NCBI GenBank assembly: GCA_030248295.1
Contig: JASANH010001537.1
Span: forward strand, 868,001 to 932,000
Direction: 5' to 3'
Length of the DNA stretch: 64,000 nucleotides
Source: Mesodorylaimus sp. YZB2_4
Taxonomy: Eukaryota > Nematoda > Enoplea > Dorylaimida > Dorylaimidae
Shown: positions 8,203 to 42,800 of the stretch, in pieces
How the letters are laid out: the number at the start of each line of letters is the position of its first letter
Numbering within the stretch: the stretch's first letter is position 1
Notes under the pieces: model-generated
The model's database searches: none
Seen by the model: the letters and a program-made list of their open reading frames with translations, nothing else
Told to the model about the DNA's origin: nothing
Program-made: the position numbers and the translations under genes

Positions 8203-8330
8203 TTGCAGATTTTGGGCATGCCCACAATAATCTACATTATGCATCACGTCTTACCTCCGCATTCTTGGGCTGGAGAGTACGAGTTAAAGGTATCGTTTCA
8301 AGTGAAAAGCAAAAATTTATTTTTCGTCGA
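8203..8330 (+). CDS. Possible downstream OTU exon (W-x-G-E-x-E-L block)
   Basis: An open frame contains MHHVLPPHSWAGEYELKVSF. Its WAGEYELK part resembles the conserved block that follows the catalytic Cys block in OTU proteases. It lies about 350 bp after the DGNC exon on the same strand. Exon borders and phase could not be fixed, so the link is an inference. Confidence 0.3.
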
Positions 8331-8602
8331 AACTTATATCATAAATCAACCAAGGGGGCTAAGGGCTATCGGAAACAGTGTGTTTGATTGTGGTCACTGC
8401 GTTGACTACCCAGCGGTCATTTTTTTTCCGAGACTCCGCCTGGTTTACCACCTGGCGTAATGGATATAAAACTGCAGCAGGTGTGGCTACAGTATTTTGC
8501 CTTTGCTCGCTGTTTGCTTTTGCATACGATTGTTTTCTCAATGTTTGAGGCGATTAAAAATCAGTTTTTTATTTCCGTTTTCTTACACTGGCAATAGTAA
8601 AT

Positions 8603-9619
8603 ATGCCACAGAAATGTCTTGTGCCAAACTGCAAGGTCAGCAGGGACACGCACCCCTTGACCTCATTATTTTCCTTACCGACAGACGGCGAACGACGGGC
8701 TGCTTGGCTGCGAAGCATGGGAGCTGAAAATACTCACCTTCCGTCCAAGGCAACCGTGTGCATGCTGCATTTTGAAGACGACTTCATCATCAAGAACGGA
8801 AGCCGTATTACGCTCAAAAAGAATGCTGTGCCAACTATTGTTGATCCTTTTTCCACGAGACAGGTAAGCAGGCATGTTACTATATTGTAGTGGTAAAGGT
8901 TTACTGTACTCTAGTTGGGCTCTGCAGCCTGGATTGTCATATTTACTAGCAGCAGTCATGTTATCGCCCAGTTGCACTTAGAAGTACAGTACAATAAAAT
9001 TAGTGCTAGACATGACCTCGAGGTCAAGGTCAGATATCTGTCAAAACCTCGAGGTCAAGGTCAGAAAATTTTTTTGGGTTCGGTCAAGGTCAGGGTCAGG
9101 TCAGAAAAGTTTTTGAAGGGTCGGTGAGACAGTAAAAAAACCAGGCCAGTGAAACACTAAATAAAATACACATTTCTTGCAGCTGCAATGTGCTCCGATA
9201 TCGTCTGTCAAAGTTTACTCGTCGTCTATGCATTTCAGTGAATACAGAGAAAGTGACTGCCAGTTCCGTATGCCAGCTCAGTGGTCCCCAGGTAAGTATA
9301 GAGTTTCGAATACTGACTGATCTTATAAGGTTCCTTTTATTCAGGTGCCCACGAAATCTGCTCACGATGCTGCCACGTGTGCACCAGTCGAAATGGTATC
9401 AGCGTCTAGTGACGCCCCCATTGAAACAGCGGTATTGAATCACTCTGTTGTAAGTAGCTCCTCTGTGCACTGTCTGTGAGTCAAAGCTTTCACAAGAAGG
9501 TCGCATTATTTTAGGATACGGTGTCCTCAGTAATAACTATTGATGCTCAAAGAGAAAGCGACTACGAATATGAACCAGATAAAAAATCGAAAAAATCGAA
9601 AACCAGAATCGAAATATAA
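8603..9619 (+). CDS. THAP zinc-finger protein, 3' end provided by repeat
   Basis: Exon 1 (8603-8863) encodes a THAP domain: MPQKCLVPNC, TSLFSLPTD, RRAAWLRSMG, STA-like VCMLHF with the Cys/His of the C2CH module, LKKNAVPTIV with the AVPT box. A canonical donor (CAG/GTAAGC) follows. Two further exons keep phase: 9345-9449 (starts VPTKSAHDAA) and 9515-9619 (starts DTVSSVITID, ends in a Lys-rich tail). The model is 156 residues. The last four codons and the TAA lie in the first bases of repeat copy A (9607 on), so the original 3' end may have been replaced. 9183-9291 has splice-like borders and an open frame but would shift phase, so it is left out. THAP proteins are DNA-binding and often derive from P-element-type transposases; no transposase domain follows here. 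Confidence 0.6.
9003..9125 (+). repeat. Low-complexity GGTCAAGGTCAG tract
   Basis: Imperfect repeats of (A/G)GGTCA(A/G) separated by A/T-rich spacers lie in the first THAP intron. A reverse-complement version occurs at 23949-24040. This is degenerate microsatellite-type sequence. Confidence 0.7.
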
Positions 9620-11557
9620 CCTATCTAAATCAAATCAACGTGTGATTCTGCCATCGAGCAATATCAACTTCCACTGCGCAAACAATCGACGACAGAATCT
9701 TTTGGTAGCAGAAGGTGGTTGGGCGTGGAGAATCAATCGAGACAATGGGAACACGAGTGCCCGATGCCAGATGCCGATGCCGATGCCCGATGCTGATGCC
9801 GATGCACGAATGCCTGCAAACACCAACTGTTGCGCAGGTTTTCTCCAACCACTCTAGTGTGATGAGTGAGATGATCTGCATTGATGATTTTTTCTTCTGC
9901 TCATAATTAGGGTTACAAGTCAACTTCTCATTATTATTATTTTAGACCAGAGAAAACAATGGGTGCAAACACAATTGTAATGCGTTCGTGGGTGCGAACC
10001 AAAGCTTTCTGCAAAATATCAGAGGCGGCCAACTGATCAGCGATAGCGGTGGCCTGAAGTCTTTAGAATTCTTGAATTCTTGTGTGGTAAGCAGCCCGAA
10101 GAATGAGAAAAACATGCGGGGATTTTTCCAAACCCGCTTTTCGGGTTTTAGGCTTCGCTTTTAAGCTTCCAATACTCGGCTTTTGGGCAAAAATCCTAAA
10201 GAATTAAAAGAATTCGTGGGACTTTAGGCTTTGACCATTGCTGACTTATTGATCAGACGCCCCTGATATTTTTCAGAGTGTTTTATTTTGCACTTAGGAA
10301 CAAATTGCTATTTTTGGTTGCTATTTTTGGTTTTGTTGAGTTCGGCGCAACAGTTGTCAAGGTTGCCTTTTCATATTTTGCAAATGTTTAGAGTCGGACG
10401 ACAGAAATATTAGTGGGGAGTGGAAAAAGTGGAAATATCCGTTTTTATAAAAAAATTTGAAGGTCATGGTCACAACCATTCATGGGCAGCATTCTTCTTT
10501 GTTTCATCAGCTTTTAAAGTAGATCCATGATGAGCAGTGTGGCTGAGAGGGGCTGCTTGTGCCATGGCTCCATGACAATGAATACTGTATGTTTATGGTG
10601 AGGAGCAGCCTTTCGAACAAAGTTGATGCGTTATTGATTGTTCAAAAAATAACATGTATTTCATGACATGATCCGATCCCGTTATGATCTGGGTGAAGAG
10701 GACGACTTCCCAACCCTGTGCAGTCTTCCATTTGGACTTACATTGGGGTTAGGTGGGGGGCTTACATTGGTCTTTCCCTGGAGTGTACAGTCATTAGGTT
10801 CAGTGTTCGAGGCCAATTGTAAATAAAAATGCTAGGAAGGCCATTTGAACGAATCAGAGTGATAGGCCTCGTGTCCCTGGCGCATCAATTGGGCAATATT
10901 GATCCAATGTGGGCATAACACTTATGAGTCTTCCATTTGGACGTACGTTGGGTATGCAGCAGGAACGATCATTATCTCTGTTTTGTGCCGTGCTGCGGAG
11001 TACTTTCTTTAGGCAAAAAATTTGATAGGCGACTGACTTGACTAATTTCAGCAAGTCTTGGATAAAATTTTTTGCGTATGGCGACTAGGGATAGGTCGGG
11101 GTCCTGATCCCGAAGCGCTTCGGGATTATGCATAACGGTCATACATACTGTAGGCGTGCACGCTAGGTACACTCCGATCCATCGCATCATATCTTGCAAG
11201 AGGAAGCAGACGATATTGGCTCAGTCATTGTTCGAAGAGACAACGGTTCATTGAATTTCCAGGTCAGTAATGTCAGCAAATTTTTGCCATAGAGCACGCT
11301 TTGTGAACAAGGAATATGATCGGTCTTGCTATTGGACCTTTTTCCTACTCAAAGATGGTATCGGGTATGATGGAGGCATCAAAGAAGTATTTTTGTTGTT
11401 TTTCCTGCCGCCTGCATGTCTGAGTACATATTCGAAAAATCTGCGCTTTTCAGCACGGTAGTGCGGGTAAGAATTTCTGACTATGAAATGGTCGATCTGT
11501 AGGTGGTCTTCACGATTTCTGGGCGCGGGTTCACGTTACGTTTTATGTTTCTGTTTT

Positions 11558-12086
11558 TCAGAGGTTTGGAAGAAGGCGCACTGTAGTCATGTCACCCAAT
11601 TCTCCCAGTTTATCCCTGTTTAACCTGGGAATCTCACGCACGATTAGAGTGAGACCAAAAAGAACAGTTTTCCTCATTCGAGGATTTTTAAAGCCCAAGA
11701 CATTGAGAGCGAGTTCGACAAGGGTGTTATCAGTTTCGGCAAAATTGTACGGCGACTTGCAATGAGCACATCGCCAAGTGGGCGAAACTGAGAGTAAGTA
11801 TGACCAGTGTCCCAGAAAGCCTGCTGTAACGCCGCACCGTTCTGAAGTTTCGCTCGTCTCGTGAATCAATTACGCATGTCCACGTCACGACAGTGTGTGC
11901 GGTTTTTGCTGAGGAATCACTCATACCTGACTCAAACACACCATTATAGGGAGAAATCACTGCAAATCCAAGAATGGACAGATGAGCACAAAACCACTTT
12001 AAATATGCAAGAATTGATGCAATGCATGGGTACGACCATACCACGGTGAAAATACGGCATCCCGTCAGATCTGCCAAGTCAAGCAC
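11558..12086 (-). other. Antisense open frame in copy A, broken by a 4-base indel
   Basis: The frame starts inside the 5S gene on the opposite strand (MLDLADLTGCRIF). In copies B and C it runs on through CAHCKSPYNF. In copy A four bases are missing near 11833, giving a different short end. No known domain is recognised. It is probably non-coding, but a donor-like ACGGTAAGC sits exactly where A differs. Confidence 0.15.
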
Positions 12087-12146
12087 CGTCGGGCCCGGTT
12101 AGTACTTGGATGGGAGACCGCCTGGGAACTCCGGGTGTCGTACTCT
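12029..12146 (+). rRNA. 5S rRNA gene, copy A
   Basis: The complete 5S pattern is present: 5' GGTACGACCATACCACG, box A region CCAAGTCAAGCACCGTCGGG, box C region GGTTAGTACTTGGATGGGAG, and GACCGCCTGGGAACTCCGGG near the 3' end. The ends pair (GTACGAC with GTCGTAC). A T run (TACTCTTTTG) right after the 3' end serves as the Pol III terminator. Length is about 118 nt, normal for animal 5S. All internal promoter blocks look intact, so it may be transcribed. It sits inside a larger dispersed repeat, not a simple tandem 5S array. Confidence 0.85.
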
Positions 12147-13157
12147 TTTGCATCCCTCAGAAGAATGCTGTTTTTTTGGAATCGTGCAGTTCCTGCTGCA
12201 CCCATGGTCGAGTCTTCGCTGACCCTTTTTGTTTTCCTGTTGGCCGTGCATTGCTTTTCTTCTAAAGTGACAATCTACGTGCAGTACAGGCGGATTTTGA
12301 GTCATGATCCTGATTACATATAACTCACAAGTTCGACTGCCATTGATAATCTATCTCGAATATCAGACAAATTTGAGACAGCTCATGACCAATCAGAACT
12401 GCGGACGCCTATAGAAAATCTAAAAAGTCGATAAATTTTTGTGGAAGAATTCAGGTGCCAGAGGCCAGAGATGACGGTCATTTTAATTGCTGCCTGCGCA
12501 TTGTCTCAAAGATTTAAAGCCGACATGGTTTCATAATTTCAGGCATGGATGCAATGTATGATATGGTTGATGCGCTTCTAAGCTTCAAGATTTTATGTCG
12601 TTTGGCGAGTACATCTTGGCAACAGCACGGCTGTTGATGAATGACACTCGGGCCACTAGATACTGTACGGATTTGAGCACACAAATGCCACATTGTTTCA
12701 GTCATTGACACAATGCTGAACGAGCTTTCAATCATCATCATATTTCGAAAATTAGTTAGTTACTTAGGGCGGAAACTAAGCCTAATTTTGTCTTTAGATC
12801 CAAGATAAAGTTAAAATCGATCCAGATTTTCGGTCCTGATTAGTGTTGCAAATGACGTTGGTTTTTGAATTTGACTTACCTTGACTTTGACAGGGGCACC
12901 AAAAAACTTTTGTCTTTGACAGGGGTTAAAAATGCTTGATTTTGACACTGACATTGACTCAAAATTGACCTTTCGCAAAAATTTCAAAAAGACTCTGTGG
13001 ACACGCCTCTTGTCCCACCAGGTAACTAGCTCTCATGCCGCCCCACAGTCTTCGCCCAAGTCTGGGATGGCAGTTGGCTAAGGACGAGCCTGATTGCGTG
13101 GACAGGATGACTTCCCAATCTTGTTCAGCAGAGCACAACTGCGCGTGCAAAGAAGTA

Positions 13158-13455
13158 TACAGCAGGAGCGATCATTATCTCTGTTTTGTGCCACGCAGCG
13201 GAGTTTTTTTTTTTTTGGAACTTGATAGTTGACTGACTTTACTAATTTTAGCAAGTTTGGATAAAATTTTTTGCGAATGGAGACTAGGGATAGGTCAGGA
13301 TCCTGATCCCGACATTGAGGCTTCGGGATTGCATAACGGTTATATGTAGGCGTAAGCACGCTAGGTACACTCTGATCCAGCGCCAAATCTTGCCAGAGGA
13401 AGCAGAAGATAACGTTGTTGGATTAGATTGGCTCAGTCATCGTTCGTGGAGACTG
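13158..13455 (+). repeat. Diverged second copy of the 10.96-11.25 kb sub-repeat
   Basis: GCAGGAGCGATCATTATCTCTGTTTTGTGCC, GGATAAAATTTTTTGCG, GACTAGGGATAGGTC, TCCTGATCCCG and GCACGCTAGGTACACTC recur in the same order as at 10955-11215, with clear divergence. A more diverged relative of this family occurs at 26780-27075, which also shares the ATGAAGAGGCAACAGCAA block with 13615-13640. Confidence 0.65.
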
Positions 13456-13737
13456 TAAGGGGGAAGTTAAGATCTATCTAGTTTATGCACCATGCTAATC
13501 ATGTCGTGTGCGCCACTGCTACCTTTGCCCTTTCAGGCCTATCTAAACATCAGGTATAGGTCATGCTGACTAGTTCCTTGTTTTCGTCTCTGTCCATGAT
13601 GTTGCATTGATATGAAGATGAAGAGGCAACAGCAAGGCTGACCTTGGGGGACTTGTATCGAAACTGCAAATGGACTGATCAATTTCAGCTCTCACGAGTA
13701 TATAATCGGCCTAAGGAAAAGCTAAAAACCTAGATGC

Positions 13738-16380
13738 CTAAAAAATGTGCTTTAGTGAGGCAAAAAAACGAAAAAAGCAACTCAATCCCTGTCCTGATCC
13801 TGATTCGGTCCTGTACTCGACTCGGTCCTGTACTCGACTCGGTTCGCCTCGAATGTCTGGAGCTGCTTGTTCGATTGAAGCAACGGGAGGACGCATTGAG
13901 AATCGATCCACATAAAGGTGCTTTCGATTTGAAGCTGCAGTCCGTCGCGGACAAAAGTGAGGATCTTCGCTCAAATATGTGCTGCCAGCAGTTCGAGTCG
14001 TGGAATTGTTGGATCCTTCGCCTTCCACTTGTCTGCTCGCTTCGGTGCCACCTTGTTCATTCGGAAGCACAACAGCAGTTGAGTCAAGTCGTCTAGAATG
14101 ACTTGTCCCCTGTACAGGCATTCGTTCAGGCTGCGCTGTTGATTGCTTGTCTTGGCAGAACCATCATAGACAATTCGTACTTTGGTTGTCGCTCGATCAG
14201 GCGTGATCACAGGATGGTGTGGAAGGTAGTGAATGGGCTGTCGATCCTGTCTCGGTCGATCTTTTCAATGATGCCCTTTTGCAGCTGATCTTGGATTACA
14301 GCATGGTATTTAATCATCAGCTCGGGGTCGTATTGTAAGCCATGGATCCTTGACTTGAGTCGCCCCATGGATAGTCCGTAGTTGTCTTGCAGATCGAGAT
14401 GTTCACCTTTTTGCGGCCATTGAACTTGATATCGATTTTCCTGGACTTTGATTGTTTCATTGAATATCTGCATGGCTTTATCGTCGTCACGTTCATTGAT
14501 TCGATCAGTGATGCCTATCTTATCGAGTTTCCACAGGTCGTTGATTTGAGTTTGATCTGTGGTGTGTGGCTCGAGGTGGCTCAGCTCTGGACTGTTGATT
14601 GCGACTGACGACACAAAGCAGTTGAATGTTGAGGCTGGCTCAGCGATTTTGATTTGATTCTTGGTTCGGCGGAAAACGATCCACCCAAAGATAGAGCTGC
14701 GGAGATAAAGGCTTGGTCCGATTTCTTTGCTGTTGGCTAGCATGATGCGCTCATATTCATTGATGCCGATGAGTACATCTATCTTGATCATTTCCGATTG
14801 GATCGGCTAGATCATAGGCGTCGAGAGTGTCCTTTAGATCCGCGAGCATCGCGGCGCTCCGCCACAGTGATTGAGCGATCTGCGGGACGACATTTGCTTT
14901 GATTTTGATTCGTTTCCCACGTTTGCCCTTCAGTTCGAGCTCAACGATTGCAGATTTGATTCGCTTTGGTTCTTTGGCTCCGAACGTGTACAGCATGATT
15001 TCTTCGTGCGACGTTGGTTTGATCGCGAGTCGCTTGATAAGCCCTTCAGTCACATATGTTCGCTGGCTACCGCTATCGAGAGGAATTCTTTCTTTGATCG
15101 ATCGAGGAGCTTGGCCCCATGATTGGATATCACCCACGGCTGTCTGTAAAAAGACTGCTTGATTCGATGTGAACAGACTTGTGCTTACGTCAGAAGCGAG
15201 AGTCGTTGTGGTTGCCCCAGTGTCCATATGCGGTGCCTTCGATCGCTTGTTGCAGATGCTTGAATGATGGCTGGTGTCACGACAATGATAGCACCTTGAT
15301 TTCGCTTAGCATTGGTAAGTTCAGTGGCCTGGTTTGAGACATCGCCAGCAATGGTCCTTGAGTTTTCTCTTTCATTCTTCGACTGTAGGCACTTGTTGGC
15401 ATTCATTGGCGCAGTGGTCGCCCTCGCAGTGGATGCGTGGAGAGCGAGGCTTGTTCTCGATTGGGTTATGATTGGTGGTAGCTGTTAAGGCACGTTTCGT
15501 TTTACTCTTGCTGCTGACCAGGAAAGAATGGCTCCCCTGGGTATGCTTGGCTTTTCCTTCATTTCGCTGCTCTGGTAACTGAACTGATCATGGCTCGTCT
15601 TTTGTTTCTCGTACTGCATGGTGCGCTCGGGGGCAACGGCATCATGGATTGCTACCATCTTGGTCGATTCGGCTCGCAGTTCTTTGAGCACCCATTGATC
15701 GGCGGGTTTCTTTTCATATATCTTTTCGGGAATAAACGCTGGCAGTTTCGGCAAGATCAAACTTGGCGTCCAAGATTCATCGACTGCGCCACTGGCATTG
15801 ATTCGATTGAGCGCAGATGCTTTTGGAGATTGATTTGTAGTTGGCGCAGGCCTTCCGTTTCTAGCGATCTCGAGATCGTTGCTGCGTTTGAATGATATCC
15901 TGATCGTTTCCAAAGCGTTCCTTCAGGAGCTGAACTGCCGTTTCGTAGTTCTCGCCTTTGACAGCTAACCCATCAATCACTGATTTCGCATCGCCCATTA
16001 GTTAAGCCACCAGATAGGCCATTTTCGTGACAGGCGCGACAGCATCATTCGCGTGAACCTACGCGTGGAACGCATCTCAGAATGGCTTGAATTGCAGTCG
16101 ATCACCACTGAACTTCGGCAACTCGAGTTTTGGCAACTTGGCGTGAATTTGTCCGACGCCACCCCGGCCTTGATTCATACTAGCTTGGTTGTCTACGGCT
16201 TGGTTGCTACGACTTCCTTGTTCGACGCGCTCACATTCTATTTGAGCTTGCTGTTCGACTCCTTCCATATCCCACCTCATTCTTTGTTCCTCTCTCTGCA
16301 ACCATATCTGCATCTGAATTCGCTCAATCTCCGCGTTCACTTTGACCTCTTCCAACTTGGCCTTTCACTGGCGTTCCTCA
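13738..16380 (-). mobile_element. BEL/Pao LTR retrotransposon remnant with internal deletion
   Basis: The 5' end on the minus strand (16355 downwards) has the gag block LPKLELPKFSGDRLQFKPF of the DUF1759 type. Further gag sequence is at 15913-15485. A CX2CX4HX4C zinc knuckle (CYHCRDTSHHSSIC) lies at 15293-15252. A retropepsin-like block with PLDSGSQRTYVT lies near 15085-15050. The start of the reverse transcriptase region follows (14791-14207; DSPFTTFHTIL, then RATTKVRIVYDGSAK at about 14190). The frame then passes from LTQLLLCFRM directly to TIPRLELLAAHI, a block that normally lies far downstream, so the RT catalytic core (the YxDD region) is deleted. Several frameshifts separate the blocks. 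RNase H and integrase are not seen. The element lies exactly between repeat copies A and B. It is not autonomous. Confidence 0.8.
13796..13845 (+). repeat. Short tandem repeat CCTGTACTCGACTCGGT
   Basis: Two exact 17-base units, flanked by further CCTGATCC/TCGGTCC pieces. It is one of several degenerate short-motif tracts in the window. Confidence 0.6.
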
Positions 16381-18506
16381 TTCTCGATCATCTGATTCTC
16401 AAAACAGCCAATATCGGCAATTGCCGAGTCGTATTCGATCTCGATTTGGGCGCACTGCTCGCCTTCGTTGACAAACTAAACGGACTCGACATCGTCCACA
16501 GTCATGGGGGGTGTCGTTTTCTGTGTATCGAATGTGCGGTTGGTTATCAAGGGCTCTATCGAAATATAACCTATCTAAATCAAATCAACGTGTGATTCTG
16601 CCATCGAGCAATATCAACTTCCACTGCGCAAACAATCGACGACAGAATCTTTTGGTAGCAGAAGGTGGTTGGGCGTGGAGAATCAATCGAGACAATGGGA
16701 ACACGAGTGCCCGATGCCAGATGCCGATGCCGATGCCCGATGCTGATGCCGATGCACGAATGCCTGCAAACACCAACTGTTGCGCAGGTTTTCTCCAACC
16801 ACTCTAGTGTGATGAGTGAGATGATCTGCATTGATGATTTTTTCTTCTGCTCATAATTAGGGTTACAAGTCAACTTCTCATTATTATTATTTTAGACCAG
16901 AGAAAACAATGGGTGCAAACACAATTGTAATGCGTTCGTGGGTGCGAACCAAAGCTTTCTGCAAAATATCAGAGGCGGCCAACTGATCAGCGATAGCGGT
17001 GGCCTGAAGTCTTTAGAATTCTTGAATTCTTGTGTGGTAAGCAGCCCGAAGAATGAGAAAAACATGCGGGGATTTTTCCAAACCCGCTTTTCGGGTTTTA
17101 GGCTTCGCTTTTAAGCTTCCAATACTCGGCTTTTGGGCAAAAATCCTAAAGAATTAAAAGAATTCGTGGGACTTTAGGCTTTGACCATTGCTGACTTATT
17201 GATCAGACGCCCCTGATATTTTTCAGAGTGTTTTATTTTGCACTTAGGAACAAATTGCTATTTTTGGTTGCTATTTTTGGTTTTGTTGAGTTCGGCGCAA
17301 CAGTTGTCAAGGTTGCCTTTTCATATTTTGCAAATGTTTAGAGTCGGACGACAGAAATATTAGTGGGGAGTGGAAAAAGTGGAAATATCCGTTTTTATAA
17401 AAAAATTTGAAGGTCATGGTCACAACCATTCATGGGCAGCATTCTTCTTTGTTTCATCAGCTTTTAAAGTAGATCCATGATGAGCAGTGTGGCTGAGAGG
17501 GGCTGCTTGTGCCATGGCTCCATGACAATGAATACTGTATGTTTATGGTGAGGAGCAGCCTTTCGAACAAAGTTGATGCGTTATTGATTGTTCAAAAAAT
17601 AACATGTATTTCATGACATGATCCGATCCCGTTATGATCTGGGTGAAGAGGACGACTTCCCAACCCTGTGCAGTCTTCCATTTGGACTTACATTGGGGTT
17701 AGGTGGGGGGCTACATTGGTCTTTCCCTGGAGTGTACAGTCATTAGGTTCAGTGTTCGAGGCCAATTGTAAATAAAAATGCTAGGAAGGCCATTTGAACG
17801 AATCAGAGTGATAGGCCTCGTGTCCCTGGCGCATCAATTGGGCAATATTGATCCAATGTGGGCATAACACTTATGAGTCTTCCATTTGGACGTACGTTGG
17901 GTATGCAGCAGGAACGATCATTATCTCTGTTTTGTGCCGTGCTGCGGAGTACTTTCTTTAGGCAAAAAATTTGATAGGCGACTGACTTGACTAATTTCAG
18001 CAAGTCTTGGATAAAATTTTTTGCGTATGGCGACTAGGGATAGGTCGGGGTCCTGATCCCGAAGCGCTTCGGGATTATGCATAACGGTCATACATACTGT
18101 AGGCGTGCACGCTAGGTACACTCCGATCCATCGCATCATATCTTGCAAGAGGAAGCAGACGATATTGGCTCAGTCATTGTTCGAAGAGACAACGGTTCAT
18201 TGAATTTCCAGGTCAGTAATGTCAGCAAATTTTTGCCATAGAGCACGCTTTGTGAACAAGGAATATGATCGGTCTTGCTATTGGACCTTTTTCCTACTCA
18301 AAGATGGTATCGGGTATGATGGAGGCATCAAAGAAGTATTTTTGTTGTTTTTCCTGCCGCCTGCATGTCTGAGTACATATTCGAAAAATCTGCGCTTTTC
18401 AGCACGGTAGTGCGGGTAAGAATTTCTGACTATGAAATGGTCGATCTGTAGGTGGTCTTCACGATTTCTGGGCGCGGGTTCACGTTACGTTTTATGTTTC
18501 TGTTTT

Positions 18507-19037
18507 TCAGAGGTTTGGAAGAAGGCGCACTGTAGTCATGTCACCCAATTCTCCCAGTTTATCCCTGTTTAACCTGGGAATCTCACGCACGATTAGAGTG
18601 AGACCAAAAAGAACAGTTTTCCTCATTCGAGGCCTTTTAAAGCCCAAGACATTGAGAGCGAGTTCGACACGGGTGTTATCAGTTTCGGCAAAATTGTACG
18701 GCGACTTGCAATGAGCACATCGCCAAGTGGGCGAAACTGAGAGTAAGTATGACCAGTGTCCCAGAAAGCCTGCTGTAACGCCGCTTACCGTTCTGAAGTT
18801 TCGCTCGTCTCGTGAATCAATTACGCATGTCCACGTCACGACAGTGTGTGCGGTTTTTGCTGAGGAATCACTCATACCTGACTCAAACACACCATTATAG
18901 GGAGAAATCACTGCAAATCCAAGAATGGACAGATGAGCACAAAACCACTTTAAATATGCAAGAATTGATGCAATGCATGGGTACGACCATACCACGGTGA
19001 AAATACGGCATCCCGTCAGATCTGCCAAGTCAAGCAC
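18507..19037 (-). other. Antisense open frame across 5S gene, copy B (176 codons)
   Basis: A continuous frame starts within the antisense of the 5S gene and ends in LGELGDMTTVRLLPNL. It contains a Cys pair (WRCAHCKSPYNF) but no domain I recognise. The same frame is open in copy C until the copy ends and is broken in A. Because the first residues are only antisense 5S, coding is doubtful. Confidence 0.15.
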
Positions 19038-19097
19038 CGTCGGGCCCGGTTAGTACTTGGATGGGAGACCGCCTGGGAACTCCGGGTGTCGTACTCT
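18980..19097 (+). rRNA. 5S rRNA gene, copy B
   Basis: The sequence matches the copy A gene over the whole ~118 nt, including box A, intermediate element and box C regions, paired ends and the CTTTT terminator. No difference from copy A was seen inside the gene. It is probably transcribable. Confidence 0.85.
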
Positions 19098-20179
19098 TTT
19101 GCATCCCTCAGAAGAATGCTGTTTTTTTGGAATCGTGCAGCTCCTGGTGCACCCATGGTCGAGTCTTCGCTGACCCTTTTTGTTTTCCTGTTGGCCGTGC
19201 ATTGCTTTTCTTCTAAAGTGACAATCTACGTGCAGTACAGGCGGATTTTGAGTCATGATCCTGATTACATATAACTCACAAGTTCGACTGCCATTGATAA
19301 TCTATCTCGAATATCAGACAAATTTGAGACAGCTCATGACCAATCAGAACTGCGGACGCCTATAGAAAATCTAAAAAGTCGATAAATTTTTGTGGAAGAA
19401 TTCAGGTGCCAGAGGCCAGAGATGACGGTCATTTTAATTGCTGCCTGCGCATTGTCTCAAAGATTTAAAGCCGACATGGTTTCATAATTTCAGGCATGGA
19501 TGCAATGTATGATATGGTTGATGCGCTTCTAAGCTTCAAGATTTTATGTCGTTTGGCGAGTACATCTTGGCAACAGCACGGCTGTTGATGAATGACACTC
19601 GGGCCACTAGATACTGTACGGATTTGAGCACACAAATGCCACATTGTTTCAGTCATTGACACAATGCTGAACGAGCTTTCAATCATCATCATATTTCGAA
19701 AATTAGTTAGTTACTTAGGGCGGAAACTAAGCCTAATTTTGTCTTTAGATCCAAGATAAAGTTAAAATCGATCCAGATTTTCGGTCCTGATTAGTGTTGC
19801 AAATGACGTTGGTTTTTGAATTTGACTTACCTTGACTTTGACAGGGGCACCAAAAAACTTTTGTCTTTGACAGGGGTTAAAAATGCTTGATTTTGACACT
19901 GACATTGACTCAAAATTGACCTTTCGCAAAAATTTCAAAAAGACTCTGTGGACACGCCTCTTGTCCCACCAGGTAACTAGCTCTCATGCCGCCCCACAGT
20001 CTTCGCCCAAGTCTGGGACGGCAGTTGGCTAAGGACGAGCCTGTCTGCGTGGACAGGATGACTTCCCAATCTTGTTGAGCAGAGAATAATTGCGCGTGCA
20101 AAGAAGTATACAGCAGGAGCGATCATTATCTCTGTTTTGTGCCTCGCAGCGGAGTTTTCTTTTTGGAACTTGATAGTTG

Positions 20180-22115
20180 AAACGTGTCAATTGGAGTTCT
20201 GTAAACGATCGCCTTGGTCAACGTGATTTAGTGGGACTTGTTTCAGCGGCTCCTTCCGTCGATGACGCCTGCAAGGTGATGACTACTACAATTATCGACG
20301 TTTTGACCGAATTGATACCGCAGAGAACTATTCGACGTGACAAGCGAAACCCATGGATAACGGCAGATTTATTAGTCCTCATTCGCCAGAAAAACATCGC
20401 ATTTCGAGCTTGGAAATCGACTGGCTCCGTCGTCGATCACCGAATTTTCACATCTCTAGATCGCGATGCAAAAAATTAATTCGAAAAGCGAAATCAAATT
20501 TTATCAAATCGTCCTTCGAAAATGTCGACTCGCCGGCCTCCTTTTGGACAGCTTATCGCGGTCTGTTGCCTGACGAACGAAAAATTCCTGTGTTGTCCGA
20601 AGAAAACGATTGGCCATGTATTACCGCCGCTGAGAAAGCCGACGCCTTGAACCAACATTTCTCCAAAAATTTCAATGATGTTTATTATGGCGAATTTCGA
20701 AGCCCTTTTATTGACACAGACGATTTTAATGATTATTCTGTGAGTGAGGCGTTTATTGCTCGAGAAATCCGTCAGCTGAAGAACAATAGCGCCCCAGGAA
20801 TCGATGGCCTGACGGTTCCTATCATCAAACGAATTTCACCGAGTATCGCCCCGGCTCTGGTTATTGTCTTCAATCGATCAATCAATGACGACATTTACCC
20901 CGATTATTGGAAGCGCGCCCTGCCATTCCGAAACCTGGGAATAAAAATTCTGTCAAGTCGTATCGTCCAATCTCGCTGCTTTGTATTGTCTCTAAAATTT
21001 TGGAGCGGCATATGGATAAACTACTTCGCTCATATTTGTCATTATCTCCAAATCAGCACGGTTTCTGCAAGCGGCGTGGCACGAATACTGCGCTAATATC
21101 TACAACACAATTCATCCATGATTCTTTGAACTCGAGAAATTCAAAATTCGTTATTGGAATATTCTTGGATCTCCAGAAAGCCTTCGATCGTGTGCCCCAC
21201 GTATTATTATTAAATCGCCTAAAATCCGATCGTCGCATACCATCGAAAATTATAAGGTGGTTGGAATCCTATTTATCTGATCGATCTCAACACGTCGTAG
21301 TTGACGGTTCTGCTTCTTCACCTGCGAATGTGTCCTCAGGCGTACCCCAAGGCAGTGTTCTTGGTCCGACATTATTTATCGCCTTCCTTGATCCGCTCCT
21401 ACACGAATTCAAATTGCGATTCCCGCACTTTTTATTGCCTGCTTACGCTGATGATACGTCGTTATTTGCACCGCTCAAAAACCTTAAAGAAGCCGAGAAA
21501 TTAATTCAGCCTGCTTTGGATTTTATCATGATGTGGTTTGGTCAAGATGGATTGAATATCAACGTGGAGAAAACGCAAGCCATTATTTTTCGCTATGGTC
21601 ACAACCGGCTCAGTCAACTCCCGAATCTGTTTTTGCAGGGCAGCAAGCTGGAATTTGTCGATCAGCTAACTTACTTAGGTATTACGTTTTCTGGTGACCT
21701 CAAATTCAGTGAACACGTGTCCATTGCTGCTCGTAAATGCAACGCTATGATTGGTGCTTTACGACGCAGACTCGGTAAAAATGTGCATCCACGTATATTT
21801 GGATCCGTTTATAATGCATGCATACGTTCTGTACTGGAGTATGGCTGTGTTGCGTGAGATCCTGTTTTGCAATCTGATGTTGATGAGTTGGAGAAGGTAC
21901 AGTTTTACGGACTGCGGTTGTACTTAAATGATTTTACCATTTCTTATCAGGAAGGTCTTGAGCTTGCCGGTTGGATGTCTTTATCTGAGCGTAGACGTCG
22001 TCTGAAAGTGGTACAGTTTTATAAATTTTATCACGGGTATCACGATTTCAGTAATCGATTTTTTATTCACAAAGATGGTAATGTTCGTACAAGTGATAGG
22101 CGCTGTGATATCAAA
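20180..22115 (+). mobile_element. 5'-truncated non-LTR (LINE) retrotransposon, Jockey/CR1-like
   Basis: There is no endonuclease domain; the sequence begins inside the linker upstream of the reverse transcriptase. RT blocks in order: NNSAPGIDGLTVPIIKR (about 20790-20830), PIPKPGNKNSVKSYRPISLL (20925-20985), QHGFCKRRGTNTALI, FLDLQKAFDRVPH (21163-21200), GVPQGSVLGPTLF (21340-21380), YADDTSLF (21443-21470, the catalytic Asp pair), then the thumb-like YLGITF and SVLEYGCVA. Frameshifts lie near 20470 and 20920. TGA at 21855-21857 interrupts a family-typical segment, after which the frame continues to about 22100. This is a dead copy. It fills the space between repeat copies B and C. Confidence 0.85.
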
Positions 22116-23411
22116 AATTTTTTGGTGCCCCTGTCAAAGTCAAGGTAAGTCAAATTCAAAAGCCGACGTCATTTGCATCACTAATCAGGACCGAAAATCT
22201 GGATCGATTTTAACTTTATCTTGGATCTTAAGACAAAATTAGGCTTGGTTTCCGCCATAATTAACTAACTAATTTTCGGAATATGATGATGATTGAAAGC
22301 TCGTTCAGCATTGTGTCAATGACTGAAACAATGTGGCATTTGTGTGCTCAAATCCGTACAGTATCTAGTGGCCAGAGTGTCATTCATCAACAGCCGTGCT
22401 GTTGCCAAGATGTACTCGCCAAACGACATAAAATCTTGAAGCTTAGAAGCGCATCAACCATATCATACATTGCATCCATGCCTAAAATAATGAAACCATG
22501 TCGGCTATAAATCTTTGAGACAATGCGCAGGCAGCAATTAAAATGACCGTCATCTCTGGCCTCTGGCACCTGAATTCTTCCACAAAAATTTATCGACTTT
22601 TTAGATTTTCTATAGGCGTCCGCAGTTCTGATTGGTCATGAGCTGTCTCAAATTTGTCTGATATTCGAGATAGATTATCAATGGCAGTCGAACTTGTGAG
22701 TTATATGTAATCAGGATCATGACTCAAAATCCGCCTGTACTGCACGTAGATTGTCACTTTAGAAGAAAAGCAATGCACGGCCAACAGGAAAACAAAAAGG
22801 GTCAGCGAAGACTCGACCATGGGTGCACCAGGAGCTGCACGATTCCAAAAAAACAGCATTCTTCTGAGGGATGCAAAAGAGTACGACACCCGGAGTTCCC
22901 AGGCGGTCTCCCATCCAAGTACTAACCGGGCCCGACGGTGCTTGACTTGGCAGATCTGACGGGATGCCGTATTTTCACCGTGGTATGGTCGTACCCATGC
23001 ATTGCATCAATTCTTGCATATTTAAAGTGGTTTTGTGCTCATCTGTCCATTCTTGGATTTGCAGTGATTTCTCCCTATAATGGTGTGTTTGAGTCAGGTA
23101 TGAGTGATTCCTCAGCAAAAACCGCACACACTGTCGTGACGTGGACATGCGTAATTGATTCACGAGACGAGCGAAACTTCAGAACGGTAAGCGGCGTTAC
23201 AGCAGGCTTTCTGGGACACTGGTCATACTTACTCTCAGTTTCGCCCACTTGGCGATGTGCTCATTGCAAGTCGCCGTACAATTTTGCCGAAACTGATAAC
23301 ACCCTTGTCGAACTCGCTCTCAATGTCTTGGGCTTTGCAAGGCCTCAAATGAGGAAAACTGCTCTTTTTGGTCTCACTCTAATCGTGCGTGAGATTCCCA
23401 GGTTAAACAGG
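22116..23411 (-). repeat. Partial inverted copy C of the large repeat unit
   Basis: The reverse complement of about 11612-12903, beginning TTTTTTGGTGCCCCTGTCAAAG and ending at the complement of the CCCTGTTTAACCTGGG block. It has a few substitutions relative to A and B. With B it forms a ~1.3 kb inverted repeat with a ~2.3 kb spacer. Confidence 0.85.
22879..22996 (-). rRNA. 5S rRNA gene, copy C
   Basis: The full 5S sequence is on the minus strand with the same internal promoter blocks as the plus-strand copies. The terminator T run appears as AAAAGA at 22875-22880 on the plus strand. Its orientation is opposite to copies A and B, which is not expected in a simple head-to-tail 5S array. Confidence 0.85.
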
Positions 23412-23948
23412 GGTACATAGCCGAACATCATCCGCAATATACACCGGTCCTTGTGGTCATTCATAGCACTAACTCTCTTCGTACCCCGTGCTTTCAAACT
23501 AACGAGCGGCGCGCTTACAGTACGCCTCTTCTACACAATCGCTCTCACAGATCATGCAGACCATGAGTGGGCACATTGGAGTGCAAGATTTTCATGAGCG
23601 GCTGTTATTTCAACTGCAAAACTGTTGGATGTGCTCTCATTTGCGCTCAATGTGACGCCGGCGCGATTAGGGCCGCCATTGACATATATGGATCAGCATA
23701 CATAGCATGGCCCGCTCTGTTACGAGTGTGCTAGGTAACTTTTTGCTAATTGTCTTATTGACTTTATTGCTTTGATGAGCTGCCGCAGGAAGTTTCAGGT
23801 TGGGTTTAGGGTCCTGCAAGCTAGCTGCTGCACATAGGGCCCATGTAGGAACTCGGAGCTCCAGACATTTTAATGGCAGAAATGTTGGTTCCTTTGTTTT
23901 CAGATCACCCTGCTTCGGGATAGTGTTCCAATGACCTAGGTTTTTCAC

Positions 23949-24040
23949 TGTCTGACCTGACCCTGACCTTGACCGACCCCTCAAAAAGTTGCTGACCTGA
24001 CCCTGTCCTTGACCAAACCAAAAAACTTTCTGACCTGACC
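23949..24040 (+). repeat. TGACCTGACCCTGACCTTGACC tract
   Basis: Degenerate 6-7 base motif repeats broken by A/T-rich spacers (CAAAAAGTT, AAAAAACTTTC). It is the reverse-complement form of the tract at 9003-9125, including similarly placed spacers, so the two are copies of one sequence and not independent microsatellites. Confidence 0.65.
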
Positions 24041-25888
24041 GCTGAGCTGCTAAGAATTGTATATTTTCTGGCTCTGACTTCGACATTGATCTAACAAAAA
24101 ATTTTGTTTATAATCGGCACCAGCAACAAAGCTTCTCTGTGTTTGCAATTTTACCAAGAAATTTTACTACAGCTCACAATTTCCTGGCATTACGTGATTC
24201 GTTTCTGAATAATTTCACTATGTCTAACGAGGCCGCCTTGGCTAAAGCAGGCTGGTCCACATTATATGATCTCTGAAAACGTGCCAAATTGGGTTTATTT
24301 TATAAGCTTTACCATGGGTTTTTAGTCTTTGGGAATCGTCGTTTCATGCACAAAATGTGACCATCCTGTTAGTGGGCGACTCTGTGAACCACATCATTTG
24401 GATTTTCCAAGTCATAATTTTGAGTCCTACATACAAACAGAGTTTTGTGTTTTCTGCGACTCTTTTGCGGGATTCCGTGCCGGGATCATGCTTGGCAATA
24501 ACTTGATCTCGCGTATGAGCCTTGATCAATTTTGTGTCTCTCCCTATCCTGTCAAGTGCATGTATTTGCTTGGGTAAGGATAGGATCATGCCTGTATGTA
24601 CGTATACGATTAGAGCAGGAGTGTCTGACCTTCAGTAGTCGAAACCTGATGAAACATCAACCCACGTGGTTGACGTGCCTTCGCTTCTCTACTGCCGTCC
24701 TCGACCACCAAGAGAGAGGCTGCCGCCTCCGCAGCCTGTGTGAAACTGGCCTCAAGGAAAGTCAGATATCGATCAGCACATACTACGCTACAAATCTGAA
24801 GCCCTGGATTCTTGCCCGTCGCGCTGTGCCTCTCGCGAGCATCTGAGAGGCCTTTCTGCAGAGGACAGTGCAATTTTGTTACAATATCAGTGTAAAATGT
24901 CAAATCTGCCAGATGCTGCATCAATTCGCCAGATTAATGAATTTTGCGATGACTATGCATTATAAGAATATGCGGAAAAGAAGTCTCCACAGATAAGTAT
25001 CGAATGTGATCGGTGAATAGAAGCAGAATGTCTGAATTTCATTGCCCTATCCTGTCCCTAAAAGTCATGTACGAGTAGCAGATTGGATGAGAAAACCAGC
25101 AAGATCGCCAGAAATGGCTCAAGGCTGACACGAACATCAAATGCGTCAAAAGCAAAAAAGAGAAGAACTGTCAGCTACTAGTCCTATTGGTTCACCTTCA
25201 AACGTGCGTATCATTCGTCCAAATTGTGTCAGAGTGGTCGTTTCGTCTCACGATCAGTAGGCCTAACCTGACCAGCTGTTTCTGGTACTTCAAGATTATG
25301 GCATCGTCAGTCACTCATGCCTTAATGGAATGTGTGCACTTTTGGTCATCATTCGCTACTCAGTGCATGTACACATCGCAGTCATTAGATTAATCGTTCG
25401 ATGCCAGTTTTTAGAGCAAACAGAAGATCGTATTCGGAATCGACAAAGGCCCAGCCTCAAGAAGAGATTTTGCCTTCAAGCCGGATTTCCGTAGACATTC
25501 ATTAGTCGCCATGATTTATTGGTGGTCTATGATCGATTCAAGAAGAAAACCTCATGAAGATGGACAAGCCGTCCACCATGTCAAGTCAATCACAAGAGCT
25601 GATGGTCATGATCTTAGTCAATCCGCCTGTATAGTATGGGGGTCGATATTTGATAAACAGAATCTGTAAGTAATTTGTTTGTTTGGCACTACAGCCCAAG
25701 GCTGACGCTTATGTTTTGGTCGCAGATTCGCTCTGTTGATTTTGTGTATCTGTTTCTTGTTTTTTTTGTCAAGAAGATAGGACCGCAAGGGTTATATAAG
25801 TACGCGCTGTACAGTATTGATAGGTATTACAGAGCCAAGCTCTAGTGTTCTTGCCTTCTTTTGTGGTAGTGGTGCCCTCTGAAAATAA

Positions 25889-30424: not shown

Positions 30425-30992
30425 GACCGAACCACCGGATTGGCGATTTTTACTGAACCAAACCGAACCGGCTTTTTTGGACCTAACCACCGAACCGAAC
30501 AAACAATTTTGAATTTCCTGTTTTGTTGGTGAAAATATGGTAATTTTGTTTGAGATTTCGTTTCAGCTATGAATTTCGCTGTCCCTTTTTCTTAATTATC
30601 TGGTTCTTTCTTCATTATCTTCAAAATTTTAATTCAAAAAGTGGTTAAAATGGATTGACTTCCAAATATTTCGAACATATCGGGTGCGCCATGAAGAATG
30701 ACCCTCACAGAAATGGCTAGTTTTCTTCGGAAGCAGTAGCGTCGCAAAACCTACACCAACTAGCATTTTCAAAATATTTGGAAGTCAATCCTTTTTATCC
30801 ACTTTTTAAATTGAAATTTTGAAGATAATACAGAAAGAACCAGATAATTAAGCCTCAAAGGGACAGCGAAATTCATAGGTGAAACTAAATCTCAAACAAA
30901 ATTACCATATTTTCACCAACAAAACAGGAAATTCAAAATTGTTTGTTCGGTTCGGTGGTTGGTTCAAAAAATCGCCAATCCGGTGGTTCGGT
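30425..30992 (+). repeat. Fold-back repeat with ~240 bp arms
   Basis: 30425-30670 and 30772-30992 are inverted copies. Outer ends read GACCGAACCACCGGATTGGC against GCCAATCCGGTGGTTCGGT; inner ends read GGATTGACTTCCAAATATT against AATATTTGGAAGTCAATCC. The ~100 bp loop contains GGGTGCGCCATGAAGAATGA, a word also found (TGTCAT variant) at 30060-30082. No coding sequence is seen. It is probably a non-autonomous DNA element or an inverted duplication. Confidence 0.8.
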
Positions 30993-39800: not shown

Positions 39801-42800
39801 GAACTTCATACGTACACAGGTCAGCCGATTGTAAGAACGGATCTTGAAACGCTCAAACGAGGTCTGCGCTTTTTTGAGACCGTTTGTTACAAGTTCGATT
39901 TGATATATAGGATACGAAAATCGATAGTGGCGTTATCGATAACTGATCTACATACAAACGCATACATGACATGACATACAAAAGGCCATGACATTCAATT
40001 ATTCAATGCCCATAGATAGAGCTATGGTATCGACCAAATATTTTTTGCGCATTCCTGTACTCTGAGTGTTCTTTGACTATGTTGCCTTTACAGAAACTCG
40101 AAGGCCAAGGTTTTCATTCCCCAAATATAGATAATCTTTTGTATGTCTCATTCCAGCATCGACCGACCCACCGACCCGGCCGAACCGACCCGCCGATCCG
40201 GGCCGATGGTTTGGGACCCCCCAGGCCGATATTTATCCCCCAATTTCTCGCCTCCCCCCCCCCCCCCCACCCCGCCCCCAACGGTCTCATTGTCAGTTGA
40301 GGCAGTAATAATGAGATTCCTCGTTCTCAGATTCGAAGAGAACTATGACCATGATAGAAAATAAAGGAAGTGGTTTTTAATGATCCTTGAAAAGTGCTGA
40401 GAAAATTAGGCTTTCTGAATGGATGTAGTAATGTAAGTCAAGGGAACTTTTTGAAGCCTCTGAATCGGCCCTATGTTTTTTGGCCATGTAATCGATTATT
40501 TCATGATCGATTTTTCTTTCTTTTGGATCAACTTGTTAAAGCTATACTAGCACGGGGGGGTAACCTTAAAGAAGGTGAGAGTGCTGTGATATGCAGTCCC
40601 CATGTAAAATAAGGTTGGCATACTTCATTTTGCTCAGATCCATATCATTAGTTTAAAAAATGCGAAAATCGAAGTTTCAGAGAAAGTTGAATTGCATGCG
40701 CTTCGCGCTTTTGCCTGTGATGCGCAGGATAGCAGAGTGCTGTAACCGCAACAATTTTTTTTAACATCGGTGGAAAAATAGGTGGGAGCCATTTTTTCTT
40801 AGTTTCTTTGAGATTTAAAAGCGTAATTGATCTTATGGAATAAAATTAGCACGAAAGTTGATAAAAAGTATGCCACAAACTGACAATTTTTAGTTGCCAA
40901 GCCCAACTGTTTATTCTAGGGGTAATTTTTAATAGTAGGATATAATTATTCATTTCGAAATTTGTATTTATACGCTGCGGACAATTCGACAAAAATACAG
41001 TAGTTACATGCTTTAGCAGAGGAATACATCTGCTTTGATTTTTCTGCATTTCCAAAATTTTCTATCAGCTCTTATTATTTGTATTAATTTTCAGACGTCA
41101 GTAAAAAAATTATCGCGCCTCTCCTCTTTAGTGTATTGTCTGAAATTTTATTTCCTTGCTATTGAGCCGTTACAGTCCCAACACAAAAATGGCAGCGTTA
41201 CCAAATGTAAATATATGCCACAATATTGACCAACACATATTCGGCGAAAGCGTCACATACTTTCTTTATAAAATCACCCATAAGATCGATTACGCTTTTA
41301 AATCTCGAAGAAACTAAGAAAAAATGGCTCCCCCCATTTTTTAAAAATGTTGATAATTGTTGGTACAGTACTCTGCTATCCTGCGCATCACGGGCAAAAG
41401 CGCGCGAAGCGCGTGCAATTCAACTTTCTCTGAAAATTCGATTTTCGCATTTTTTCAAATAATGATATGGATCTGAGCAAAATTGAGTATGCCAACCTTA
41501 TTTTACATGGGGACTGCATATCACAGCACTCTCACCTTCTTCAAAGTTACCCCCTGCTAGTATAGCTTTAAGATTGGTCTCAAAAGTTAGCCCGAAACTC
41601 TCAATGGACCCCAAGCCCAGCCGATCATGTTTCTCAAAACCGGGTCATCTTTCTTACAATGGTTGTTGAAAACTTGGAGTATGTCGCGGACGAGGTTATG
41701 TATTGGATGGAATTATGGTATGTGTTATCGATTTAGGCGGCCAGCAGACGACATAATGTACTCGATTTGCAATTTTGCGGTTGGTTTCCGGGTAATTGCG
41801 TCTTTACGAATTTGTGCCATCGAGTGGATCGAGTATTACACATTGATAATATGCCGGGTTTGAGTCGGTCTTGCCAGTAAGTCGATGTGTTGTGCGGGTG
41901 GGGCTGTGATGTAGGGATTTGCATTTCAGAGATGAGAGTGATACGGAAGCAGATTTCCCGGATTTAGTTCGCTTGCGGGCCAAGCTTTCCGGGTCCACAT
42001 TGTCGACGTCGTCGGATGTGAGTGATGGACCTTCTTGGATTTCTTAGCGTTGCATATGATTCATTGTTTTAGAATCAGATCGTGCCGTCTCAAGTGCCTC
42101 GAAGTCGGAGCGGTGACATCCCGTTTATTGATAGCATCGAGACTGATATGGAGGTGGACACGGATTATTTTTATAATAGTAAGTACAAGGATTGAGGGCC
42201 TGTACGGGTGTATAGAGAATTCAGTTTGGGGAATGAAAATCTTGACTTTCGAGTTTCTGTAAAGACACCGGAGTTAAAGAGCAGTCAGATTATAGGAATG
42301 TGCAAAAAATTTTGATCGATACCATAGCTCCATTATTTATGGGCATTGAATGATTGAATGCGGCAAGATGATCCGAGCTAACGATTGATTTCTTGAAAAC
42401 CTGACTTACAGTTGGTGAAGTAATGCGCCAAAAGTCGAAATTCAAATTTTTTAGCTGAAATTTAAGGGTGTGGGCTCATAACAGAAAGCGGCATACACCT
42501 AAAAGTTTTGCATATTTGTCCATTTAAAATGACTGTAAAAAATATGCTTCAATGCCTCTGCATTATTTGAGATGGTCCGACTAGCGAGGCTGCATTTTTA
42601 GCGAGTGTAAAATTTCGTATTACTCTTGTGAAATTTTATACAATTCGACTGAAAAATGCATAGGAATCTGATACAGTATGTTTTGTATACTTAGGGCGTG
42701 AAAAAGTAGGTGGACTGAGCCTGTCTGAATCGACACTAAATGAATGATCAGTGTTCCTGGAACTGTTATCAACCCAATTGCACAGACCTGCAGGCTAAGC

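Follow-up and report, generated by a model that had tools for sequence, protein, structure and literature searches.

A composite tandem repeat of about 7 kb carrying 5S rRNA genes and a BEL/Pao remnant in the nematode Mesodorylaimus sp.

The stretch of DNA considered here (“the window”) is 64,000 nucleotides long and corresponds to positions 868,001 to 932,000 of contig JASANH010001537.1 (C13:868001-932000) of the nematode Mesodorylaimus sp. YZB2_4; the genome searched for related sequences comprises 145 Mb in 1,067 contigs. Self-alignment of the window reveals two direct repeats, “copy A” (9608-13232) and “copy B” (16558-20180), which are 99.45% identical over 3,627 columns, differ by 14 substitutions in 3,621 aligned bases and start 6,950 bp apart. 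A chance origin of repeats this long and this alike is excluded. As the initial annotation of this DNA had described, each of the near-identical 3.6-kb repeats carries a 5S rRNA gene, and the remnant of a BEL/Pao retrotransposon lies between them. The two genes score 109.1 bits each, and the remnant has a DUF1758 domain. An inverted third 5S block of 1,304 bp, at 22112-23415, was absent from that annotation. The coordinates of these features are collected in the table below.

The repeats belong to successive turns of a longer unit, which is arranged head to tail at more than one place in the genome and may start at any point. In addition to the locus on C13, which amounts to 1.52 turns in 10,573 bp, tandem arrays are found on contigs C278 and C516. 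The unit measures 6,950 bp on C13 and 6,984 bp on C278, and the two 5S genes on C516 are 6,932 bp apart. The arrays start at different positions in the unit, namely 9608 on C13, 15674 on C278 and 10758 on C516. The order on C278 is the end of a BEL piece, a unit, BEL, the start of the next unit and the contig end, while on the minus strand of C516 it is a broken transposon, a partial unit, BEL, a unit and the contig end; both arrays thus reach the end of their contig in mid-array. A 40-base sequence across the unit join has four exact matches in the genome, each of them in an array (one on C13, two on C278 and one on C516). It also occurs with one to three mismatches at four more places outside the arrays, so that the join is continuous older sequence. 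Copy A shows no substitutions in 3,133 bases against the right turn on C516, 5 in 3,623 against the first turn on C278, 23 in 2,459 (0.94%) against the left turn on C516 and 22 in 1,302 against the third, inverted copy. In each of the three arrays found, the stretch that was amplified includes the BEL remnant. Two readings of the locus had been offered at the outset, an animal LTR (long terminal repeat) element with 5S genes in giant repeats and a 5S locus amplified with a retroelement; it is the second that agrees with the presence of BEL in every array, and the first has not stood.

The locus is probably best explained as a composite tandem repeat of about 6.95 kb without fixed ends which has been joined to broken elements, and not as an element with terminal repeats. 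An alternative is that a single 7-kb stretch was locally duplicated in tandem at C13, and that the arrays on C278 and C516 are later segmental copies or alternative haplotypes, so that array biology would play no part. The mere 1.52 turns at C13 would suit such a history, as would the transposon breakpoint that C13 and C516 have in common (see below), but the alternative is unlikely, because the outer flanks of the arrays on C516 (9,793 bases) and C278 have no match in the window, so that these are not simple haplotypes, because both of those contigs end within the array, and because copy B and the turns on C278 and C516 do not fall into a simple nested order.

The unit itself is a mosaic which comprises an LTR piece, a dispersed repeat, a repeat here called “repeat X”, a second dispersed repeat, the 5S block, another copy of repeat X and the BEL piece. 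The numbers of other places given in the table for the two dispersed repeats are lower bounds (40 candidates were scored). The inner edge of copy A, at 13232/13233, falls within repeat X, and in the 82%-alike sequence at 10952-11215 of the same unit repeat X is continuous at the corresponding point. Position 9608 was considered as the fixed end of a dispersed family and rejected: many matches begin there only because the query, copy A, was cut there, and if the sequence to the left of copy B is used as the query, the matches continue past the point equivalent to 9608.

The minus-strand remnant has its DUF1758 match within 14757-15305 (24.3 bits against a Pfam cut-off of 22), and its original assignment to BEL/Pao is borne out, because other members of this family, on C222 and C199, extend into Peptidase_A17 (“Pao retrotransposon peptidase”), DUF5641 and integrase domains. 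BEL homology in the window is limited to 13830-14046 and 14047-16501. No further pol sequence, no 3' end and no flanking LTRs belonging to the remnant are found in the window. Its gag end had been said to touch copy B; the homology in fact stops 56 bp before copy B, and about 600 bp from copy A. The only LTR piece near the gag remnant is a single truncated one, cut on its 5' side and oriented opposite to it.

The LTR of this BEL family is about 240 bp long and reads TGTCGCG...CGACGACA, a length which follows from the alignment of five copies, a direct repeat on C222, a pair of LTRs on C103 and purine-rich strings. The five genomic copies (on C222, C11 and C414, and two on C103) run unbroken through the join at 16557/16558 where copy B begins. 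All five have TGTCGCGAACG upstream and the terminal sequence CGACGACA, which takes the variant form CGACGACG on C414; the version on C11 is shorter. Beyond the LTR end, C222 and the first C103 copy continue into an internal start, TTTGGTAGCAGAACGTGG, while C11, C414 and the second C103 copy continue into unrelated flank. On C222, the first 123 bp of the LTR are repeated directly 4.4 kb downstream with 99.2% identity. On C103, two LTRs that are 78% alike enclose an interior of 252 bp, and AGTGG outside each of them forms a 5-bp target-site duplication; given the 78% identity, this single example falls short of proof. The purine-rich string AAGCGGCGGAG, which we interpret as a polypurine tract, precedes three of the LTR copies (on C414, the second on C103 and the downstream one on C222), as expected of 3' LTRs. 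In the window, the LTR piece at 9608-9694 terminates in CGACGACA, followed by TTTGGTAGCAGAAGG.

If copies A and B were themselves LTRs, the locus would be a BEL/Pao element with 3.6-kb LTRs containing 5S genes, and its arrays would have arisen by recombination between LTRs, as in the Cassandra elements. The layout of direct repeat, BEL and direct repeat recurs on C278 and C516, and tandem arrays with shared LTRs have been published for Cassandra, in the part of the account that was available (PMC7215508). Such an element is nevertheless extremely improbable. The BEL family's own LTR spans the supposed edge at 16557/16558, the gag orientation is wrong relative to the adjoining LTR piece, and the inner edge of copy A is located in repeat X, another copy of which in the unit is unbroken; copies A and B include pieces of other dispersed repeats, and the array starts differ, without fixed termini bounding an internal region. 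As had been reported initially, copies A and B have no TG...CA termini, and their outer bases, ...AACCAGA and AACGTGT, contain no target-site duplication. Copies A and B are therefore not LTRs, since their edges lie inside other sequences, the array starts vary and there is no target-site duplication. Two outcomes had been named in advance as pointing to plain segmental duplication; copy ends that vary without fixed termini were found, and a general lack of BEL beside the copies was not, the unit being accompanied by BEL in three of three arrays. In addition, 63 of the 67 listed BEL pieces are situated away from the arrays, and among the contigs of these pieces only C278 has a 5S gene of the kind found in the window (“type I”; 40 candidates scored). 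The real LTR (241 bp) contains no 5S sequence, and no type I 5S gene occurs on C222, C11, C414 or C103.

At both of its edges the C13 array adjoins broken elements. The left-hand piece comprises the initial 1,301 bp of a Mutator-like DNA transposon, with a 212-bp terminal inverted repeat at 8284-8495. An intact-looking copy at C278:103598-108209 has both inverted repeats and a Mutator-like transposase domain (PF20700, 38.3 bits against a cut-off of 26.5); the window sequence at 9136-9438 itself has no Pfam match. An assignment of this flank to piggyBac, suggested by its TTAA start, was dropped because the protein of the intact copy matches a Mutator-like transposase. The 23 bases between the transposon and the array repeat the motif ATCGAAA found at the start of copy A, and look like templated filler from end joining. 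The transposon breakpoint, directly after CCAGATAAAA, is identical at window position 9584 and at C516:8908, in both cases beside a 5S/BEL array, and on C516 it is joined to unit position 10758. The shared part of the transposon differs by about 1% between C13 and C516, which is similar to the divergence of the left turn (0.94%). The element on the right is a fragment of a non-LTR retrotransposon, of which 47 matched pieces are present among the genome matches listed.

The shared breakpoint could be accounted for if a Mutator-like element had captured the 5S/BEL array as cargo, in the manner of a Pack-MULE, and had taken it to C13 and C516: the same breakpoint then stands beside the array at two unrelated sites, with the left inverted repeat intact in each, and the divergence of the transposon piece resembles that of the first turn. 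This capture is very improbable, because the right inverted repeat was not found anywhere in the window, where no enclosure of the array by both inverted repeats is seen, because the array on C278 sits outside the intact transposon, 2.9 kb away, and because C516 does not have 9585-10757 of the C13 arrangement. A wider proposal, in which the 5S/BEL unit is a mobile functional 5S array that reached several sites in the chromosomes, either in circular form or as Mutator-like cargo, and supplied part of the cell's dispersed 5S genes, is distinctly unlikely.

For the composite tandem repeat, the following course of events may be envisaged. The unit of about 6.95 kb unites a 5S gene of the dispersed type, still accompanied by some 1.3 kb of the sequence that formerly surrounded it, with debris of other repeats, a BEL LTR that is truncated and a likewise truncated gag-protease piece of BEL in the opposite orientation. 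This unit would have been amplified head to tail, possibly by unequal exchange or by way of circular copies. The C13 array, with its 1.52 turns, would have been cut arbitrarily on each side, and its ends may have been joined by end repair to the Mutator-like transposon on the left and the non-LTR retrotransposon fragment on the right. The 5S genes would be passengers of the repeat and not its drivers.

Several observations weigh against this explanation. The breakpoint common to C13 and C516 is left unexplained, since it is not predicted by independent random end joining at different sites, and it counts against fully independent events. Homogenisation of the unit is uneven, the second turn on C278 being merely 96.66% identical (987 columns, 21 mismatches and 8 gap openings). 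The continuity of sequence through 13232/13233 has a single comparison copy, which is 82% alike. There are only three arrays, two of them open at contig ends, and misassembly is possible.

The 5S gene of the unit is full length in both fold and sequence, matching positions 1-120 of the covariance model with 109.1 bits. A 61-base pattern for type I 5S genes matches 13 places in the genome with at most three mismatches (none in the control), a search which copies that had diverged further would escape. Five of these 13 genes lie in BEL-containing arrays and eight outside them. Over 119 bp, seven of the genes are identical to the window gene, three differ at one position, two at two and one at three. 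The flanks have not been preserved to the same degree: on C18 they differ at 168 of 568 positions, as against 1 of 119 in the gene (2 when ungapped; p = 3.5e-15), and at C13:124 kb they differ at 62 of 912, as against 1 of 119 (p = 0.007). This is the pattern of genes conserved by selection or gene conversion, as judged from the sequences. Because they show zero to three differences in 119 bp though their flanks are 30% diverged or unrelated, the dispersed 5S genes look functional. Those in the unit are most likely ordinary genes of RNA polymerase III with an internal promoter and a T-run terminator, and the sequences compared give no sign that the BEL piece makes use of the 5S promoter.

A second type of 5S sequence forms a tandem array with a period of 304 bp at C32:850757-861224 and C295:141-6935. 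In the eight copies compared, 10-14 positions are different from type I, and the copies not cut by the end of the stretch score from 60.8 to 104.6 bits. Many of the copies in this array have lower scores and a degenerate appearance, in contrast to the 13 dispersed genes, which are pristine. Lone 5S genes, identical to the window gene or different at 3 bases, occur at C430:26116-26234 and C184:183350-183468 with a TATA-like sequence about 30 bp upstream. The sequence shared around the gene amounts to 127 bp between these two copies and to 123 bp between them and the window; as the copies are alike over these lengths only and have no common tail, an identification as SINE3 (a short interspersed element derived from 5S) was rejected. 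A large inverted duplication at C13:120471-133241 has a 5S gene in each arm, with no differences in the 1,036 bp compared, and both arms contain pieces of window 22377-25053.

The arrangement is related to ones described in other animals, and belongs with 5S genes that lie in a composite repeat of higher order among remnants of mobile elements. Among the literature found, the nearest published arrangement is that of the beetle Tribolium freemani, where, in the part of the report available, 5S genes occur in association with arrays of satellite DNA that Jockey-like elements interrupt (PMC11202950). In both cases the 5S genes are near-identical and form part of a larger repeated structure into which retrotransposon sequence is incorporated, but the part of that report available describes a satellite spacer and a Jockey-like element, whereas here there is a mosaic unit of about 7 kb with a BEL fragment, few turns are present in the assembly and an ordinary 5S array lies apart from it at other sites (PMC11202950). 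The Cassandra elements, which are terminal-repeat retrotransposons in miniature (TRIMs), likewise have 5S sequence in direct repeats and form tandem arrays, but as described in the portion of the source available their 5S sequence lies inside true LTRs and they have no gag or pol, whereas the repeats here are not LTRs (PMC7215508). The initial annotation knew of no animal equivalent of Cassandra, a statement which is out of date, given that the nemertean TRIM Ajax has part of the 5S gene in its LTRs, according to the part of the account available (PMC10886601). Ajax resembles the present case in being an animal instance of 5S-derived sequence in repeated DNA, and differs in that, as far as that portion of the account goes, only the 5S promoter part is present, in LTRs with 5-bp target-site duplications, whereas here whole conserved 5S genes occur without LTR structure (PMC10886601). 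The defining feature of Cassandra and Ajax, 5S sequence inside an LTR, was looked for in the present unit and is absent. Extrachromosomal circles of 5S rDNA have also been described, in the part of the source available (PMC3225859); circular multimers of this kind could yield arrays with arbitrary starts, which makes them a possible mechanism here. No description of a 5S-BEL tandem unit was found in the literature searched (titles and the starts of abstracts), which does not imply its absence from print.

These results dispose of a false lead, namely giant LTRs with 5S genes in an animal element, and provide a clear case of 5S spread in which whole genes remain nearly unchanged amid surroundings that are reshuffled with fragments of mobile elements. 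Should the shared breakpoint be a trace of array movement, it would reveal one way in which dispersed rRNA genes increase in number.

Table. Features of the 5S/BEL locus, in window coordinates.
Feature	Position	Strand	Evidence or remark
Mutator-like DNA transposon, left end, broken at 9584	8284-9584	+	98-99% to C516 and C278
Filler between transposon break and array	9585-9607		23 bases
Copy A, 3.6-kb part of the unit	9608-13232	+	99.45% to copy B
3' part of BEL-family LTR, cut at array start	9608-9694	+	90.8% to C103 LTR
Dispersed-repeat piece	9816-10679	+	At least 21 other places, about 70-78%
Repeat X, first copy	10952-11251	+	82% to 13155-13411; parts on C194 and C10
Second dispersed repeat	11263-11619	+	At least 9 other places, 81-86%
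5S block common to inverted third copy	11611-12912	+	98% to 22112-23415
5S rRNA gene 1	12028-12146	+	Rfam RF00001, 109.1 bits, gathering score 38; TTTT follows
Repeat X, second copy, spanning end of copy A (13232/13233)	13155-13411	+	Self-alignment
BEL/Pao gag-protease remnant	13830-16501	-	840 bp missing at 14046/14047 relative to BEL copies on C532 and C199
Truncated BEL-family LTR, across start of copy B (16557/16558)	16511-16644	+	87.4% to C103 LTR
Copy B, begins second, incomplete turn of the unit	16558-20180	+	Alignment with copy A and comparison of arrays
5S rRNA gene 2, same sequence as gene 1	18979-19097	+	109.1 bits
Non-LTR retrotransposon fragment (reverse transcriptase), right of copy B	20181-22111	+	RVT_1, 118.6 bits
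Third 5S block, inverted	22112-23415	-	98.5% to copy B
5S rRNA gene 3, identical	22878-22996	-	Within inverted block 22112-23415
Pieces common to older 5S locus at C13:120-133 kb	23416-25053 (to 23704; 23457-23884; 24580-25053)	-	Alignment

Some minor observations were made besides. The C103 pair of BEL-type LTRs (78% alike), with its 252-bp interior and flanking AGTGG, makes up a TRIM-like element of 729 bp at C103:111321-112049. In the window, Srx and Srsx receptor matches lie barely over the cut-off, and the sequences at 40037-42313 and 30474-30971 are inverted repeats with arms that are 84-96% complementary, probably foldback elements.

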